A DNA stretch of 64,000 bases, from positions 2,877 to 66,876 of the forward strand of contig NZ_JAANOP010000005.1 of assembly GCF_011250515.1 (NCBI RefSeq), written 5' to 3'. A model generated the notes under the pieces. It was not told where the DNA came from. It ran no database searches and saw only the letters and a program-made list of their open reading frames with translations. The position numbers and the translations under genes are program-made. Source of the DNA: Aquirufa ecclesiirivi. Its GTDB lineage: Bacteria; Bacteroidota; Bacteroidia; Cytophagales; Spirosomataceae. Shown here piece by piece: positions 1 through 34,526 of the stretch (positions are counted from its first letter, which is position 1; every line of letters begins with the position of its first letter).

Positions 1-3000
1 TCGGTTTACTAATTGGATTAGCTGTAGTACTTGCACCGGAAAAAGTTAGTGTTTTTGTTCCTGAATATTCAATAGCATCATTCCCATAGGCATCTACCGC
101 TTTTATACTCAAAGTTTGGGTGGCACCAACTTGTTGACTTGATTGGCCACTGATGACAAAATGAGTAGCAGCATTAGATTTTACCTGAATTGAAAACGCT
201 GATTTAGCTGATATGCTACCAACACTTACCTGGATATTCGCAGTTTCCACTTGGTATAAAATCAAATCTACTTGGGCTATTCCGTTTGTAAATACCACTT
301 GAACGGGTTGACCAAAATCGATTCCAGAAACACTCGGTTTACTAATTGGATTAGCTGTAGTACTTGCACCGGAAAAAGTTAGTGTTTTTGTTCCTGAATA
401 TTCAATAGCATCATTCCCATAGGCATCTACCGCTTTTATACTCAAAGTTTGGGTGGCACCAGCTTGTTGACTTGATTGGCCACTGATGACAAAATGAGTA
501 GTTGAGCTAGCATTTACTTGAATCCCTAATAGACTACTAGCTAAAACTCCACTCGATACAACAATGGATGCCTGCTCTGCCCTAAACAAAGTCAAATCCA
601 CAGATGCAACTCCTTGATTAAACAATACGACTAAACCTTGATTGAATGTCCCTTTTATATATCGACCTTGAACTGAAGGATTCAATACTGGATTTAAGGA
701 GGCATTGGCCCCTGAAAAAACAAGATTTACATCCGAAAAACCTCCCATAAATCCTGTATCCACATTCCCATAGGCATCCACCGCTTTTATACTCAAGGTC
801 TGGATGGCCCCTACTTGTTGGGTCGCATTTCCACTGGTAACAAAATGAGTAGCAGAGCTAGCATTTACTTGAATGGCCAAAGGTGAACTTGTCTTGATTG
901 TCCCCTCATTTACGGAAATAGACGCAGTTTCCACTTGGTATAAAATCAAATCTACTTGAGCCATTCCGTTCGTAAAAACCAGTTGGACAGGTAGTCCAAA
1001 ATCTATCCCAGAGACACTCGGTTTACTAATTGGGTTAGTCGTTGTACTTGCCCCAGAAAAAGTTAGCGTTTTTGCTCCTGAATATTCAATAGCCTCATTC
1101 CCATAAGCATCTACCGCTTTTATGCTCAACAACTGGGTGCTTCCAGCTTGTTGGGTCGCAGTTCCACTAATCACAAAATGAGTAGCGGGATTAGATATTA
1201 CCTGAATCGAAAACACTGATTTGGCGGATATGCTACCATCACTTACCTGGATATTCGCCGTTTCCACTTGGTATAAAATCAAATCAACCTGAGCCATTCC
1301 GTTCGTGAAAACCACTTGGACAGGTAGTCCAAAATCTATCCCAGAGACACTCGGTTTACTAATTGGGTTAGTCGTTGTACTTGCCCCAGAAAATATCAGT
1401 GTTTTTGTTCCTGAATATTCAATAGCACCATTCCCATAAACATCTACCGCTTTTATGCTCAACGACTGGGTACTTCCAGCTTGTTGGGTCGCAGTTCCAC
1501 TGATGACAAAATGAGTAGCGGGATTAGATATTACCTGAATCGAAAACGCTGATTTGGCTGATATGCTACCATCTGTTACCTGGATATTCGCAGTTTCCAC
1601 TTGGTATAAAATCAAATCTACTTGAGCCATTCCGTTTGTGAAAACCACTTGAACGGGTTGACCAAAATCTACCGCAGAAACACTCGGTTTACTTATTTGG
1701 TTGGTTGTAGTACTTGCCCCAGAAAAAATCAGTGTTTTTGTTCCTGAATATTCAATAGCCTCATTCCCATAGTCATCTAAAGCTTTTATACCCAAAGTCT
1801 GCGTTGCTCCAGCTTGTTGAGTTGCAGTCCCACTGATGACAAAATGAGTAGCAGCATTAGATTTTACCTGAATCGAAAACGCTGATTTGGTAGATATGCT
1901 ACCATCACTTACCTGGATATTCGCCGTTTCCAATTGGTATAAAACCAAATCTACTTGGGCCATTCCGTTCGTAAAAACCACTTGGACAGGTAGTCCAAAA
2001 TCAACACCTGATACTGTAGGATTTCTTATTGGGTTGGTTGTATTACTTGCCCCAGAAAAAGTCAGTGTTTTTGTTCCTGTATATTCAATAACCTCATTCC
2101 CATAGGCATCTACCGCTTTAATTCTCAAAGTCTGAGTAGTTCCTGCTTGCTGAGTCTCATTCCCACTGATGACATTATGAGTTGCTGAACCAGCTTTTAC
2201 TTGAATGGCTAAAGGTGCTTGGGGTAAAATCACCCCATCAGTTACTGAAATTGAAGCTTTTTCTGCTTTATAAAGTGTTAAGTCGACTAATGCTATTCCT
2301 TTGTTAAACAATACCCTTAGACTTTGATTCATTGCTCCAGTTTCATATCGACCTTTAACGACGGGATTCAATACTGGATTATTGGATGCATTGGCCCCTG
2401 TGAAAACTAGATTTACATCTGTGAAACCTCCCATAAACCCTGTATCCACATTCCCGTAGGCATCCACAGCTTTTATAATCAACGATTGGGTGCTTCCAAC
2501 TTGTTGGGTCGCATTTCCACTGATGACAAAATGAGTTGCTGAACTAGGTTTTACTTGAATTGAAAAAGCTGATTTTTCTGAAATAGTACCATCACTTACC
2601 TGGATACTCGCCGTTTCCACTTGGTATAAGATCAAATCCACTTGGGCAATTCCGTTCGTGAAAACCACTTGAACGAGTTGACCAAAATCGATTGCAGAAA
2701 TACTTGGATTTCTAAGTGGATTGCTCGTCGAGCTGGCTCCAGAAAAGATGAGGGATTTCGTACCAGAAAAAAAACTACTGGCTACATTACCATAGATATC
2801 TATCTCGCGGATACTTAAAGTCTGTACTCTTCCTGCCTCTTGTTTGTTTAAACCTAGAATTTCAAAATGAGTAAAATTACCAGATATCACTTGTACAGAT
2901 AAAGGAGAATTCGATGCTATTGTACTATCAGAAACGATTATACTAGCTTGTTCTGCTTTTCTAAGAATTAAATTGACTTCAGCTATCCCTGATACAAAAT

Positions 3001-3060
3001 TCACTTCTATTTCCTCTCCAAAATTGACCCCATTGGCAGTTGGACTATAAATTCCAATGG
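1..3060 (-). repeat. Tandem array of about 111-codon repeats inside the giant protein gene
   Basis: The anchor motif for ATHFVISG recurs at plus-strand positions 161, 494, 845, 1178, 1511, 1844, 2177, 2531 and 2867. The spacings are 333, 351, 333, 333, 333, 333, 354 and 336 bp. The 333-bp units are nearly identical. The two longer steps (351 and 354 bp) contain a second unit type with a VDTGFMGGF segment, seen near 600-840 and 2240-2490. All spacings are multiples of three, so the frame is kept. Confidence 0.9.
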
Positions 3061-4066
3061 TAAGGGCTCCTCCAAACCGTAATTTTTTTCTACCTACATA
3101 ATTTGATTCTGTAAAACCTAATATATTTTTAGCCACTACTCTTACAGGGTATACCGCACCCACATGGACAGCATTTAAACCTTCAAGAACAAAGTAATTA
3201 TTATCAAAATCTTGAGGAAGTATTTCAACAGGCTCACTGTCTACATAAACTCCATTTTCTGTAGACACATTTAATATATCAGTATTAATATTTTGGCCAG
3301 AATATATCATCCCTAAAGCTGTTAAGTCAGCAATACCATCCACAAAATCCGTAGGTTGATCTAATACATTATTTCCTTTTGAACCCAATCCACTAATTAC
3401 TCCATCTAATGCGGCACTCGTAATGGTTACAGGATTTTTACTTGCGTCAAAATCTAGAACAACATTTCCAAAACCGTCAATTGCTAAAATTTGATTTTCC
3501 CCTTTGATAGGTGATTGGTTTTTAAAATTGGGCTCTAATTTAATTTGAAAACTATTCCATGCTCCATTAATAACTTGAATGGAAAAAACATTGGAAACCA
3601 TTCCAGAATGACTCGCTTGAATAGTTGTTAAACCTGCTGTAAATAACTCCAATTCAACTTGAGCTTTACCTTTGTTAAAGCTTACAGTTATAAGTTCTCC
3701 GAAGTTGGACCCATTAACCAAAGCAGGATAATCCAACAATTGAATTTCAAATATAGAAAATGACACATGTTTAGTACCTTGATACGTAAGATCCACTTGA
3801 CCTTGAGAATCAATGGCTTCGATATTAACAGTCAAATATTCACCTGCCACCGAAGTAGTATTTGTGGAAGTTAATCTGAGCTGAGTTGCAGCTTGACTTT
3901 TAGACAAAGCTTGGGAATAAGCAAGTTTTGTGAATTCATCATTTTTGTTAATTCCTGTTGAATAAACTATTTCCGAATGAAAAAGTAAAATCAAAAAAAT
4001 CAGGTTTGTCAGAATAGCCCAATCTCTAAAAGAATGAGGAATTCTTAATTTATTAGTGGTATACAT
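1..4066 (-). CDS. Giant secreted tandem-repeat protein, C-terminal part beyond the window
   Basis: The reading frame is open from an ATG at 4066 to the left edge, giving at least 1,355 residues with no stop. The N-terminus looks like a signal peptide: basic residues, then a hydrophobic stretch (ILTNLIFLILLF) ending near residue 35. Residues of about 60-390 are non-repetitive. After that come beta-sandwich-like repeats with the recurring motifs ATHFVISG, LSIKAVDAYGN and KTLTFSGAS, followed by a segment with VVFTNGMAQVDL. Such Ig-like repeats are common in large Bacteroidota surface proteins, which often end in a type IX secretion sorting domain; that end is not visible here. An adhesin or surface-layer role is an inference. 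The PorW/SprE gene at 44042 shows that type IX secretion is plausible in this organism. No convincing promoter was found upstream. Confidence 0.85.
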   Translation of the reverse strand, partial: MYTTNKLRIPHSFRDWAILTNLIFLILLFHSEIVYSTGINKNDEFTKLAYSQALSKSQAATQLRLTSTNTTSVAGEYLTVNIEAIDSQGQVDLTYQGTKHVSFSIFEIQLLDYPALVNGSNFGELITVSFNKGKAQVELELFTAGLTTIQASHSGMVSNVFSIQVINGAWNSFQIKLEPNFKNQSPIKGENQILAIDGFGNVVLDFDASKNPVTITSAALDGVISGLGSKGNNVLDQPTDFVDGIADLTALGMIYSGQNINTDILNVSTENGVYVDSEPVEILPQDFDNNYFVLEGLNAVHVGAVYPVRVVAKNILGFTESNYVGRKKLRFGGALTIGIYSPTANGVNFGEEIEVNFVSGIAEVNLILRKAEQASIIVSDSTIASNSPLSVQVISGNFTHFEILGLNKQEAGRVQTLSIREIDIYGNVASSFFSGTKSLIFSGASSTSNPLRNPSISAIDFGQLVQVVFTNGIAQVDLILYQVETASIQVSDGTISEKSAFSIQVKPSSATHFVISGNATQQVGSTQSLIIKAVDAYGNVDTGFMGGFTDVNLVFTGANASNNPVLNPVVKGRYETGAMNQSLRVLFNKGIALVDLTLYKAEKASISVTDGVILPQAPLAIQVKAGSATHNVISGNETQQAGTTQTLRIKAVDAYGNEVIEYTGTKTLTFSGASNTTNPIRNPTVSGVDFGLPVQVVFTNGMAQVDLVLYQLETANIQVSDGSISTKSAFSIQVKSNAATHFVISGTATQQAGATQTLGIKALDDYGNEAIEYSGTKTLIFSGASTTTNQISKPSVSAVDFGQPVQVVFTNGMAQVDLILYQVETANIQVTDGSISAKSAFSIQVISNPATHFVISGTATQQAGSTQSLSIKAVDVYGNGAIEYSGTKTLIFSGASTTTNPISKPSVSGIDFGLPVQVVFTNGMAQVDLILYQVETANIQVSDGSISAKSVFSIQVISNPATHFVISGTATQQAGSTQLLSIKAVDAYGNEAIEYSGAKTLTFSGASTTTNPISKPSVSGIDFGLPVQLVFTNGMAQVDLILYQVETASISVNEGTIKTSSPLAIQVNASSATHFVTSGNATQQVGAIQTLSIKAVDAYGNVDTGFMGGFSDVNLVFSGANASLNPVLNPSVQGRYIKGTFNQGLVVLFNQGVASVDLTLFRAEQASIVVSSGVLASSLLGIQVNASSTTHFVISGQSSQQAGATQTLSIKAVDAYGNDAIEYSGTKTLTFSGASTTANPISKPSVSGIDFGQPVQVVFTNGIAQVDLILYQVETANIQVSVGSISAKSAFSIQVKSNAATHFVISGQSSQQVGATQTLSIKAVDAYGNDAIEYSGTKTLTFSGASTTANPISKP

Positions 4067-4450
4067 CGTGATTAGAGCTTCAAAGCTTACACTTTGAATC
4101 AAATATTAAATATGTGTTCAGGCAGACATGTAAGGCGACTGAGCGATTAGACTCATGATTTAAACAAATTGATATTCGATTAGAATCATCTCAAATCAAT
4201 GCCATTGACAGACCGAAGTCCACAAAGCACGATGAACAAACGAGAATACTCTTGTTGTAAAAAAGACCAAAAATGCAAAAATGGATGTACCCAATTTGGG
4301 CCAAATGAAGAAGACATGGGATATATTTTAGTGGTTAGATTGCCATTAGGCAATGCTAAACTAGGAAATCACCCGTATGAATCCAATTAATTGGCAAGAA
4401 GATTTGTACTCAATTTGGAATGTTGCTTTTGGGTATCTCAATTACACGGG

Positions 4451-4481
4451 TTTGCATAAAAACTTTTTTTTTATACCTTTG
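4451..4481 (+). promoter_or_regulatory. Bacteroidota-type promoter of the tyrosine operon
   Basis: A TTTG at 4451-4454 is followed by a 19-bp spacer and a TACCTTTG at 4474-4481. This matches the Bacteroidota consensus TTTG-N19-TAnnTTTG exactly. The predicted transcription start is near 4485, directly before the leader-peptide ATG codons at 4486 and 4492. Confidence 0.7.
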
Positions 4482-4485
4482 GGAC

Positions 4486-4551
4486 ATGATTATGCATTCA
4501 ACTACTTATTACTACGCTTATTATTACGCAGGATATCCATCCTGCCAATAG
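4486..4551 (+). CDS. Tyrosine-rich leader peptide (attenuator peptide)
   Basis: A 21-codon open frame (ATG 4486, TAG 4549-4551; a second in-frame ATG lies at 4492) encodes seven tyrosines. Six of them fall in one block of seven residues, YYYAYYY, at 4507-4527. The frame begins about 5 bases after a consensus -7 box and ends about 40 bases before a terminator that precedes an aminotransferase-tyrA operon. This is the classic arrangement of a ribosome-stalling leader peptide: when charged tRNA-Tyr is scarce the ribosome stalls on the Tyr codons and downstream RNA folding changes. The transcript may be leaderless if translation starts at 4486. The function is inferred from codon content and position. 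Confidence 0.75.
   Translation: MIMHSTTYYYAYYYAGYPSCQ
4528..4545 (+). promoter_or_regulatory. Leader stem-loop just after the Tyr codons
   Basis: GCAGGAT (4528-4534) pairs perfectly with ATCCTGC (4539-4545) around a 4-base loop. It starts on the base after the Tyr block, so a ribosome stalled there would cover it. It is the likely first structure of the attenuator. A weak competing pairing, GGCT 4551-4554 with AGCC 4589-4592, could act as antiterminator. Confidence 0.55.
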
Positions 4552-4588
4552 GCTATTGTAGGTATAGATTTAATTTAAACTTATTATG

Positions 4589-4612
4589 AGCCGGCCCAAA
4601 GTCGGTTTTTTT
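4589..4612 (+). terminator. Attenuator terminator in front of the tyrosine operon
   Basis: AGCCGGC (4589-4595), loop CCAAA and GTCGGTT (4601-4607) form a short stem with two G-U pairs. The T run starts at 4606 and reaches 4612. The first structural gene begins at 4618, so the terminator sits between leader peptide and operon, as expected for attenuation. Confidence 0.7.
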
Positions 4613-4617
4613 GTTTT

Positions 4618-5793
4618 ATGAGCTTCACCATTTCTCCAGCTTCTCGGTTACAAGTTGTACAAGAATACTACTTTTCTACCAAGCTAAAACAGATTGCAGC
4701 CTTGAAAGCATCAGGTATCCCTGTGCTTAATCTTGGTATTGGTAGTCCTGACCTAGCACCCTCAGATGTCACCATTCAGGCATTGATTACTAGCGCCCAG
4801 AAAAAAGAAAACCATGCCTACCAAGGTTACCAAGGTATTCCTGCTTTGCGTGAAGCTTTTGCTCAATTTTACCAGAAACACTACCAACTAGACTTAAATC
4901 CCAATTCCGAAATATTACCTCTAATGGGCTCCAAAGAAGGCATCATGCACATTGCTATGGCATATTTGGAAAAAGGAGATATCACCTTAATCCCCAATCC
5001 TGGTTACCCAACCTACCAAGCTGCTTGTGCCCTAACAGGGGCAGAAGTACAAAGTTATGAGCTGTCGGAAGCCAATGGCTGGCTACCTGATTTAGATGCC
5101 TTGGCCAAGCGCGATTTATCTCAAGTGAAAATCATGTGGGTCAACTATCCTCATATGCCAACGGGTGCTAAGGCCGATAAAGCATTTTTTGAAAAGCTGC
5201 GTGATTTTGCCGTCACTCATTCCATCTTATTGGTCAATGACAACCCGTATAGCTTTATCTTAAATGAAGAACCTATCAGTATGTTAAGTATACCTGGGAT
5301 GAAAGAGGTGGCCTTGGAATTAAATTCTCTTTCCAAATCCCATAACATGGCGGGTTGGAGAATTGGTGCTGTGATGGGAAAACAAGAATTCTTAGCGCCC
5401 ATTTTGACTTTTAAATCCAACATGGACTCAGGTATGTTTTTACCTCTTCAAGAAGCCGCGGCGGAAGCATTAAAAGCCGATTCGGCTTGGTTTAAACAAC
5501 AAAATGAGATTTATGCTGGCCGTCAAAAAGTAGTATTTCAATTGATGGACTTATTAAACTGTAGCTATGATCCGAAACAAAGCGGCATGTTTGTTTGGGC
5601 TAAAATTCCCCATACTTATGCTGACGGATATGAGCTTTCCGACAAAATTCTTAGCGAAAATGCCGTCTTCATCACTCCAGGCGGTATTTTTGGAAGTCAA
5701 GGAAATAATTACATCCGCATCTCTCTATGTGCCCCCATTTCCCTTTTTGAAACAGCTATCAAGCGCATAAAAACACAGTCGAATGGAATCTAA
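4618..5793 (+). CDS. Class I/II PLP-dependent aminotransferase (aromatic/aspartate type)
   Basis: This 391-residue fold-type I aminotransferase would move an amino group between an amino acid and a keto acid. The PLP lysine is K240 in SLSKSHNMAGWRIG, the ring-nitrogen aspartate lies in NDNPYS (about 208), and the carboxylate-binding arginine in YIRIS near the C-terminus. The usual NNPTG signature is changed to PHMPTG (178-183), so the common PLP-contacting Asn is replaced. The ATG follows the attenuator T run by five bases and there is no Shine-Dalgarno motif, which is normal in this phylum. It overlaps tyrA by 11 bases. With the Tyr leader upstream, the likely step is conversion of 4-hydroxyphenylpyruvate to tyrosine; aspartate or phenylalanine activity cannot be excluded. 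Confidence 0.88.
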   Translation: MSFTISPASRLQVVQEYYFSTKLKQIAALKASGIPVLNLGIGSPDLAPSDVTIQALITSAQKKENHAYQGYQGIPALREAFAQFYQKHYQLDLNPNSEILPLMGSKEGIMHIAMAYLEKGDITLIPNPGYPTYQAACALTGAEVQSYELSEANGWLPDLDALAKRDLSQVKIMWVNYPHMPTGAKADKAFFEKLRDFAVTHSILLVNDNPYSFILNEEPISMLSIPGMKEVALELNSLSKSHNMAGWRIGAVMGKQEFLAPILTFKSNMDSGMFLPLQEAAAEALKADSAWFKQQNEIYAGRQKVVFQLMDLLNCSYDPKQSGMFVWAKIPHTYADGYELSDKILSENAVFITPGGIFGSQGNNYIRISLCAPISLFETAIKRIKTQSNGI

Positions 5794-6646
5794 CAAAGTC
5801 GTAGGAATATTAGGTATAGGATTAATCGGTGGTTCCATGGCGCTAGGTCTACGTAAAAGTGGATGGGCCAAAGCGTGTATTGGAATTGATACGAATCGCC
5901 CGAACCAAAAGAGGGCTTTGGAATTAGGTTTAATCGATCAACTATTACCTTTGGAAGAAGCTTTACAAGTGATTGATATCCTCATTATTGCTACTCCAGT
6001 AGATAATTTGGTCGAACAATTACCCAACATGTTGGACCAATTCAACGATAAGCAAATCGTGATCGAAGTGGGTTCAACCAAAAGCCCCATTTACGAGGCG
6101 CTAAAAAATCACCCAAGAAGAAAGCAATTTGTGTCTACTCACCCCATGGCTGGAACCGAATTTTCGGGCCCAGAAGCGGCTATTGATGGGCTTTTTGAAG
6201 GAAAACGCTGTGTGATTTGTGATCAAGAACTAAGTGATCCAGATGCTGAAAAAACCATTGAGAGTCTATACCAAGACGGTTTACACATGAACTTAATCTA
6301 TATGGATTCCATCAGCCATGATGTCCATACAGCCTACATTTCCCATATTTCTCACATCTGCTCCTTTGCCTTAGCCAATACCGTGTTGGAAAAAGAGAAA
6401 GATGAAAAACGTATTTTCGAATTGGCTTCCACGGGTTTTGAATCAACCGTCCGTTTGGCCAAATCATCTCCTGAAACATGGATTCAAATCTTTCACCAAA
6501 ATCAAGAAAATTTGATGGATGTATTGGATGAATACATCAACACACTATTGAAATACAAAGGACTGATGCTTTCTGGAAGTTATGAAAAACTCAAAGAGGA
6601 ATTAGCTAAAGCCAATGACATTGGGCGGATTCTAAACCGTAAATAA
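5783..6646 (+). CDS. tyrA: Prephenate dehydrogenase
   Basis: A 287-residue NAD(P)-dependent enzyme that oxidatively decarboxylates prephenate to 4-hydroxyphenylpyruvate, the committed step to tyrosine. The Rossmann loop GIGLIGGS is at residues 16-23. Family motifs EVGSTKSPI and STHPMAGTEFSGP, and the histidine-rich DVHTAYISHISH helix, are all present. No chorismate mutase or ACT domain is attached, so this is the monofunctional form. The start overlaps the end of the aminotransferase gene by 11 bases, which implies translational coupling. It is the last gene of the attenuator-controlled unit; the next gene is on the other strand. Confidence 0.93.
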   Translation: MESNKVVGILGIGLIGGSMALGLRKSGWAKACIGIDTNRPNQKRALELGLIDQLLPLEEALQVIDILIIATPVDNLVEQLPNMLDQFNDKQIVIEVGSTKSPIYEALKNHPRRKQFVSTHPMAGTEFSGPEAAIDGLFEGKRCVICDQELSDPDAEKTIESLYQDGLHMNLIYMDSISHDVHTAYISHISHICSFALANTVLEKEKDEKRIFELASTGFESTVRLAKSSPETWIQIFHQNQENLMDVLDEYINTLLKYKGLMLSGSYEKLKEELAKANDIGRILNRK

Positions 6647-34375: not shown

Positions 34376-34401
34376 GAACTAATCGTTTATATTTCCCTAA
34401 A

Positions 34402-34484
34402 CAGGCATTTGCCTGGGGTAGGAGTTAGCACCTTAGTTTTTCAACTGGTTGCCAGAAGTTCGTTGAGCCTAGTCTCTCCCTTCT
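34402..34484 (-). promoter_or_regulatory. SAM-I (S-box) riboswitch with expression-platform hairpin
   Basis: Read on the minus strand from 34484, the core is GGGAGAGACUAGGCUC, then CUUCUGGCAACC, then AAGGUGCUAACUCCU. These are the conserved S-box elements in the right order, including the GGCAACC and GGUGCUAA blocks. P1 can form between GGGAG (34476-34480) and CUCCU (34420-34424). Directly downstream CAGGCA/UGCCUG (34402-34415) forms a hairpin that may be the expression platform. It ends about 27 bases before the metX ATG. Confidence 0.82.
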
Positions 34485-34526
34485 TCTTTATAAATCAATG
34501 CTGCTTGTGCGATTGACTTGGGACTG

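Follow-up and report, generated by a model that had tools for sequence, protein, structure and literature searches.

The 64-kb stretch of the Aquirufa genome analysed here (the window) carries two genes attributed to tyrosine synthesis in the first-pass annotation. The second of them, tyrA (5783–6646, + strand), encodes prephenate dehydrogenase (NF006307, 340.6 bits, cut-off 295; PF02153 and PF20463 also matched), which secures its part of that attribution. The first (4618–5793, +) encodes a class I/II aminotransferase (PF00155) with an LL-diaminopimelate-aminotransferase-like sequence. This protein scores below the cut-off of each of the 25 families listed, and the seven solved chains matching it at E ≤ 1e-40 are labelled as unspecified, aspartate, aromatic or succinyldiaminopimelate aminotransferases; its substrate is therefore deduced from its neighbours. 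Located beside tyrA here and between pheA and tyrA in relatives, the gene probably encodes an aromatic aminotransferase of tyrosine synthesis. A long divergent frame (2–4102, minus strand) lies upstream and extends beyond the window, and a 63-aa open frame (4199–4390, +) is found between this divergent gene and the leader promoter described below. Elsewhere the window contains a SAM riboswitch (34384–34496, minus strand; RF00162, 70.4 bits).

The promoter preceding the operon (4451–4481, +) can be read directly as a Bacteroidota primary-sigma site, with a −33 element TTTG (4451–4454) and a −7 element TACCTTTG (4474–4481). The full layout is TTTG-N19-TACCTTTG, then four bases, then the leader ATG at 4486; TAnnTTTG is the Bacteroidota −7 consensus reported in parts of PMC7366714 and PMC9723704. 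The promoter elements noted in the first-pass annotation are thus present, but they are of the Bacteroidota type, and a sigma-70 reading was rejected, as a sigma-70 scan shows no plus-strand site there. The leader frame (4486–4551, +) comprises 21 codons encoding MIMHSTTYYYAYYYAGYPSCQ and ends with the stop codon TAG (4549–4551), with an in-frame alternative AUG at 4492. Seven of its codons specify Tyr (4507, 4510, 4513, 4519, 4522, 4525 and 4534), six of them inside seven codons. The frame described earlier is therefore where it was placed, and it is unique in the window: no other short frame (8–40 codons) has at least six Tyr per seven codons, and 40 dinucleotide-preserving shuffles of the 64 kb produced no comparable Tyr run.

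The sensor codons YYYAYYY (4507–4527, +) also form region 1 of a protector pairing with region 2 (1:2). The stem-loop claimed directly after them is present (4528–4545, +), ahead of the stop codon, and probably acts as an RNA polymerase pause hairpin. Region 2, the antiterminator 5′ arm (4551–4563, +), consists of GGCU (4551–4554) and GUAGGU (4558–4563), and region 3, the 3′ arm (4579–4592, +), of ACUUAU (4579–4584) and AGCC (4589–4592); both arms are supported by folding and coevolution. AGCC is common to region 3 and the 5′ arm of an intrinsic terminator (4588–4612, +; −9.4 kcal/mol), whose stem GAGCCGGC/GUCGGUUU (4588–4595/4601–4608) has coevolving arms and continues into a U tail reaching 4612, ahead of the first gene at 4618, as the earlier description had it. 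The antiterminator is composed of two stacked helices, an outer one (4551–4554/4589–4592) and an inner one of 6 bp (4558–4563/4579–4584). Only the outer pairing, GGCT with AGCC, had been recognized previously and had been judged weak; the pairing holds, and the second helix stacks on it. Of 200 shuffles, three fold as well as the leader (z −2.6).

Relatives of the aminotransferase (E ≤ 1e-60) are encoded by 118 of 150 genomes of the host family, and 90 of these 118 were inspected, namely all 42 at ≥62.9% identity and 48 of the 76 at ≤52%. A Tyr-run leader, defined by at least three Tyr per six codons, is found upstream of all 42 orthologous genes with ≥62.9% identity and at none of the 48 more distant loci examined (47–52% identity). 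The 42 leaders span ten genera, including Aquirufa, Flectobacillus, Arcicella, Siphonobacter and Pseudarcicella; they are 15–21 codons long from the chosen ATG and contain 4–8 Tyr each, and since three are duplicates, 39 are distinct. Residues outside the Tyr run and leader length vary among genera, while the run is conserved. A perfect-stem scan finds a hairpin with a T tail in 35 of the 42 orthologs (the hairpin of L042 is poor), and in those failing the scan folding gives a terminal hairpin with bulges or mismatches. The small hairpin between Tyr run and stop is absent or weak in other leaders (e.g., L014, L023, L044); in the region corresponding to 4528–4545, at most 5% of shuffles match the fold in 18 of the 39 distinct leaders.

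RNAalifold applied to a MAFFT alignment of the leaders left five pairs, all within the terminator, an outcome probably due to rows in which the alignment shifts region 2. The argument is carried by an alignment-free swap test, made beforehand so as not to depend on the alignment, in which duplex energies were computed for each leader's own arms and for arms swapped among 15 hand-assigned genus-level groups, one representative each. With permutations that ignore the descent linking the 15 groups, own arms averaged −14.6 versus −11.8 kcal/mol for swapped ones in the antiterminator pairing 2:3 (better in 14 of 15 groups; 6 of 20000 permutations as good), −11.4 versus −8.75 kcal/mol in the terminator pairing 3:4 (15 of 15; 0 of 20000), and −13.8 versus −11.0 kcal/mol in 1:2 (13 of 15; 0 of 20000). 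For the Aquirufa window itself, 2:3 gains from its own arms (−12.4 versus −8.6 kcal/mol), and 1:2 shows no gain over swaps (−9.6 versus −9.9 kcal/mol). By this measure, which leaves kinship among the groups aside, the three competing pairings coevolve.

The same comparison bears on a different explanation of the locus, in which the Tyr-rich frame encodes a small functional peptide and the terminator merely insulates the operon from upstream transcription. The conserved reading frame and Tyr run would suit such a peptide, but its residues outside the run and its length (15–21 codons) change from genus to genus, and the pairings that coevolve reach past the frame. Similarly, the putative 63-aa frame on the same strand (4199–4390) could supply transcription to be insulated against, but the promoter lies after it, and the large upstream gene (2–4102) is transcribed divergently from the minus strand. 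We consider this explanation extremely improbable. As had been proposed for orthologous leaders under attenuation, all 42 of them retain the Tyr run along with the competing pairings, while other bases and residues drift.

Folding predictions with simulated ribosome positions indicate how the pairings could alternate. Free leader RNA is predicted to adopt the 1:2 pairing (4506–4522 with 4547–4567, around the hairpin 4528–4545) together with the terminator. Since region 2 begins within the stop codon, it is masked by a ribosome that has arrived there; in our model the ribosome blocks 14 nt beyond the start of the A site, or 12 nt beyond the stop. In the absence of region 4, the 3′ arm of the terminator, a ribosome on any of the seven Tyr codons gives a predicted antiterminator pair probability of 0.82–1.00, whereas with a ribosome at the stop the antiterminator pairs fall to 0.00 and the terminator is predicted at 0.80–1.00. 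The two ribosome positions thus resolve the switch that the earlier description had left partly unexplained. In the full transcript at equilibrium the 3:4 pair probabilities are 0.31–0.99 depending on stall position; since the terminator competes under these conditions, the switch must be kinetic. Naked RNA lacking region 4 forms 2:3 as well (0.81–0.98), which makes it doubtful that the operon is off when the leader is untranslated. A coarser fold measure, blunt partly because only four of the eight arm bases lie in the helix, gave means over the 42 leaders of 0.74 when stalled, 0.13 at the stop, 0.63 when free and 0.53 for shuffled spacers. By this measure 19 of 42 leaders beat shuffled spacers at 0.05, and the own lineage of the Aquirufa window is not favoured (0.50 versus 0.57).

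The anatomy of the leader, its conservation, the coevolution of its pairings, folding with simulated ribosome positions and the identities of the genes are the basis for our main conclusion, that the aminotransferase-tyrA operon is very probably controlled by a ribosome-mediated transcription attenuator sensing tyrosyl-tRNA(Tyr), as the first-pass annotation had suggested. From these data we infer the transcription start, stalling, pausing, leaderless translation and the direction of regulation. Transcription would begin at the leader AUG or beside it, and this 5′ AUG would be the loading site of a ribosome. With plentiful Tyr-tRNA, it would pass the seven Tyr codons, reach the stop at 4549–4551 and cover region 2; region 3 would then be free, allowing the terminator (4588–4612) to form and switching aminotransferase-tyrA off. 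With scarce Tyr-tRNA, the ribosome would stall in the Tyr run and break the 1:2 protector, and region 2 would pair with region 3 ahead of the synthesis of region 4, thereby pre-empting the terminator and permitting transcription of the operon.

The proposed position of the transcription start is based on spacing. TAnnTTTG ends 4 nt (26 leaders) or 5 nt (8 leaders) before the leader AUG, i.e., in 34 of the 42; in the remaining eight, the 9 nt ahead of the ATG hold no TTTG, and the transcript may carry a short 5′ UTR. As this motif occupies the −7 region in the part of PMC7366714 describing it, the AUG would lie at about +1, and the spacing of 4–5 nt in 34 of 42 leaders makes a leaderless or nearly leaderless transcript probable for the window and most of its relatives. 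Within the phylum only a minority of mRNAs is leaderless, amounting to 5.5% in Flavobacterium psychrophilum (PMC9723704); for Bacteroides thetaiotaomicron, PMC7366714 gives about 3.7% with a 5′ UTR below 10 nt.

To place this leader within the phylum, a wider scan was run with a seven-sequence aminotransferase alignment, and the best 80 named loci were listed. Where pheA is located directly upstream of the aminotransferase, a leader containing both Phe and Tyr codons sits before pheA at 67 of 71 loci among the matches listed that have at least 250 nt of sequence upstream, and none of these 71 has a Tyr-only leader. Further pheA loci divide evenly, 8 of 16 with a Phe+Tyr leader and 8 of 16 with no leader, giving 75 of 87 examined pheA-aminotransferase loci, some of which possibly represent the same species twice. 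The upstream stretches, coding sequence included, hold 118 aromatic-rich short frames versus 23 on the opposite strand. At 28 of the 71 loci the script threshold for two leaders is passed, with L252, L265 and L268 looking spurious. Such tandem Phe/Tyr-rich leaders, about 140–190 nt apart, occur in Chitinophaga, Hymenobacter and other Bacteroidota. Each of the two leaders before pheA is followed by a terminator at 7 of 14 inspected loci (L209, L211, L216, L145, L204, L212, L250), and L128 and L269 have two leaders and one terminator by scan. Loci of the L128–L145 type appear Hymenobacter-like, judging by named loci that share their leaders (L213, L216, L232, L245).

Where no pheA was found within 500 nt, 49 loci have Tyr-only leaders (nine of them repeat genomes already counted), two have mixed leaders (L040, L138), in which Phe codons persist beside a Tyr run, and 75 have none by the script. 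The last group includes real Tyr leaders below the script threshold (L015, L019, L044, L200), mixed leaders before a more distant pheA (L203), a mixed frame at −558, beyond the 450-nt limit (L245), and six loci with less than 900 nt of upstream sequence (L155, L157, L166, L173, L174, L178). Apart from two or three exceptions, loci lacking pheA carry either a Tyr-only leader or no leader. At the level of the order, 64 of 65 loci inspected showed no Tyr run up to 450 nt from the aminotransferase; at many of them the leader sits before pheA, further upstream. At L251 (Lentimicrobium), MYYYAYYYLNGNKGSYVLL and a terminator precede aminotransferase-tyrA, with the Tyr run directly after the start codon, making this locus a candidate independent Tyr-only case. 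L138, with no pheA found upstream, has a second leader whose run lacks Phe where relatives have several, hinting at possible independent retuning.

Tyr leaders are also found before tyrosyl-tRNA synthetase genes. An RNA model, R1, was built from the 39 distinct leaders (128 positions, mostly sequence, five pairs) and run with strict filters on the 150 family genomes. It matched 43, namely the 42 source genomes (by construction, at the same gene) and G025, where MKTAINTYYYAYYCS is followed by a terminator (by eye) and then by tyrS (TIGR00234, 378.2 bits against a cut-off of 113.8). G030 gave a second R1 match (E 0.002), which falls within a coding frame and was put down to chance. Of the 133 genomes with a tyrS match, 50 loci were inspected up to 500 nt upstream, revealing two further tyrS loci, L343 and L344, with a Tyr leader and terminator (by eye). 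The tyrS leaders accordingly come from three family genomes, at L325 (reverse complement, leader start near 1500), L343 and L344, and all three also show the spacing TTTG-N4-ATG. Tyr-containing frames were flagged upstream of tyrS at L354 and L364 as well. The host genome's own tyrS (L357) has no Tyr leader within up to 500 nt upstream.

These comparisons are relevant to the identity of the signal. A translated leader could respond to something other than Tyr-tRNA, such as a general translation slowdown, Rho/NusG coupling or an RNA-binding protein, and termination through loss of coupling would require no particular codon. Codon content, however, follows the genes: Tyr codons are found where only Tyr genes follow and Phe+Tyr codons where pheA follows (0 of 71 Tyr-only), and Tyr codons recur before tyrS in three genomes. 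As tyrS is a gene that Tyr-tRNA should control, its leaders support Tyr-tRNA sensing. With no Rfam family matched at the leader either, we regard a sensor of another kind as very unlikely. The absence of an Rfam match also led us to reject a riboswitch, T-box or other known RNA family at this position; RF01859 (Phe_leader) gave no gathering-score match in the window and none for the Aquirufa leader (L001) at E ≤ 0.5. A plasmid-borne copy was searched for, with no match.

Other amino acid genes were surveyed for similar leaders. Upstream of separate pheA genes of the host family, 30 loci yielded no convincing aromatic leader, several starts being poorly located; the Tyr-rich frame at L117 falls within a coding region and the frame at L118 is just eight codons long with three Tyr, and neither was accepted. 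No attenuator leader was found upstream of hisG and the two ilvD genes of the host genome. Just upstream of trpE in the same genome, outside the window (L291), a short frame MTKTTYNKNWWQG contains two Trp codons side by side, and a strong terminator-like hairpin separates it from trpE, suggesting a probable trp attenuator.

How the Tyr-only sensor arose can be approached by aligning leaders, bearing in mind that repeated Tyr codons inflate the alignment scores. The Siphonobacter leader L032 and the Hymenobacter first leader L129 are identical at 25 of 27 bases from the end of the run through the stop codon, one T/A difference between them being a Phe/Tyr codon difference; none of 300 shuffles is as good, for this one of 25 pairs tested. 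The Aquirufa leader L001 aligns no better than chance with L129 (44 of 300 shuffles as good), L145 (95 of 300) and L204 (19 of 300), and beats shuffles against L138 (1 of 300) and L251 (0 of 300). Considering the L032/L129 match together with the chance-level alignments of L001, descent of the Tyr-only sensor from a Phe+Tyr sensor after pheA left is likely but not proven.

We hypothesize, with confidence a little above even, the following history. Bacteroidota pheA-aminotransferase-tyrA operons would possess a family of attenuators, often in tandem pairs, every one of them equipped with a separate leader and terminator and with mixed Phe/Tyr codons that report on two tRNA pools. With the loss of pheA in Aquirufa, Siphonobacter, Arcicella, Flectobacillus and Pseudarcicella, the second leader would have disappeared and the other would have lost its Phe codons by point changes, leaving a sensor of Tyr alone that in most genera has a leaderless start; tyrS would be under related Tyr leaders, and sensor codons would evolve to fit operon content. 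There is a substantial chance, though short of even, that the Tyr leaders of the host family arose independently of the Phe+Tyr leaders in other Bacteroidota. Independent origin would accord with the failure of Aquirufa L001 to align with Hymenobacter L129 better than shuffles do (44 of 300), with the similarity that low-complexity Tyr codons force, and with the lack of a leader at family aminotransferase loci of 47–52% identity (0 of 48 examined); it is opposed by L032/L129, where 25 of 27 bases agree, the Phe/Tyr codon difference is included and 0 of 300 shuffles are as good (one of 25 pairs).

Among known systems, the enterobacterial pheA attenuator (pheL, RF01859) is alike in its short ORF, where a single aromatic codon is repeated, in the choice between antiterminator and terminator folds, and in the aromatic biosynthetic gene that follows. 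Unlike it, the Aquirufa leader uses Tyr rather than Phe codons, a probably leaderless start and a Bacteroidota promoter, and precedes aminotransferase-tyrA instead of pheA. The Phe+Tyr leader of Chitinophaga L209 scores 43.1 bits against RF01859, a family that presumably rests on enterobacterial pheL, below the gathering score of 55. Proteobacterial trp and his attenuators follow the 1:2/2:3/3:4 logic with the leader stop codon beside region 2; pairing logic and stop placement are the same here, whereas the amino acid and the probable position of the AUG almost at the transcript 5′ end differ. T-box elements of Firmicutes sense uncharged tRNA(Tyr) and control tyrS or Tyr synthesis, similar targets, but they bind the tRNA directly without translation, while the Aquirufa leader would depend on translation and has no T-box match. 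Mycobacteria have leaderless Cys-rich attenuator ORFs, which resemble it in the codon run and in its probably leaderless peptide and differ in phylum, amino acid and regulatory detail. Computational surveys of classical-type attenuation (Vitreschak, Gelfand, Lyubetsky, Seliverstov, Lopatovskaya) may contain Bacteroidota cases.

The first-pass annotation knew of no Tyr leader of this kind described in the phylum. A Tyr-only leader and its link to gene content were indeed not found in the open PMC literature, the scope of our search, but leader-peptide attenuation as such has been reported before. Part of the Flavobacterium psychrophilum transcriptome study gives strong clues for it before amino-acid operons (PMC9723704), the same phylum and type of target, with no amino acid or gene named: the words tyrosine, phenylalanine, tryptophan and histidine are absent from the main text of PMC9723704. 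In Bacteroides thetaiotaomicron, short ORFs reminiscent of leader peptides are mentioned in a part of PMC7366714.

The mechanism class is thus classical, and what appears new is the Tyr-only sensor, its probably leaderless start, its use on tyrS and the match between sensor codons and operon content. The leader comparison amounts to a natural experiment in which sensor specificity follows the controlled genes, seen as single-base Phe-to-Tyr codon differences. It also provides what is likely an example of attenuation with hardly any 5′ UTR, which bears on ribosome loading and transcription-translation coupling in Bacteroidota, and the leader permits annotation of tyrosine operons in many genomes.
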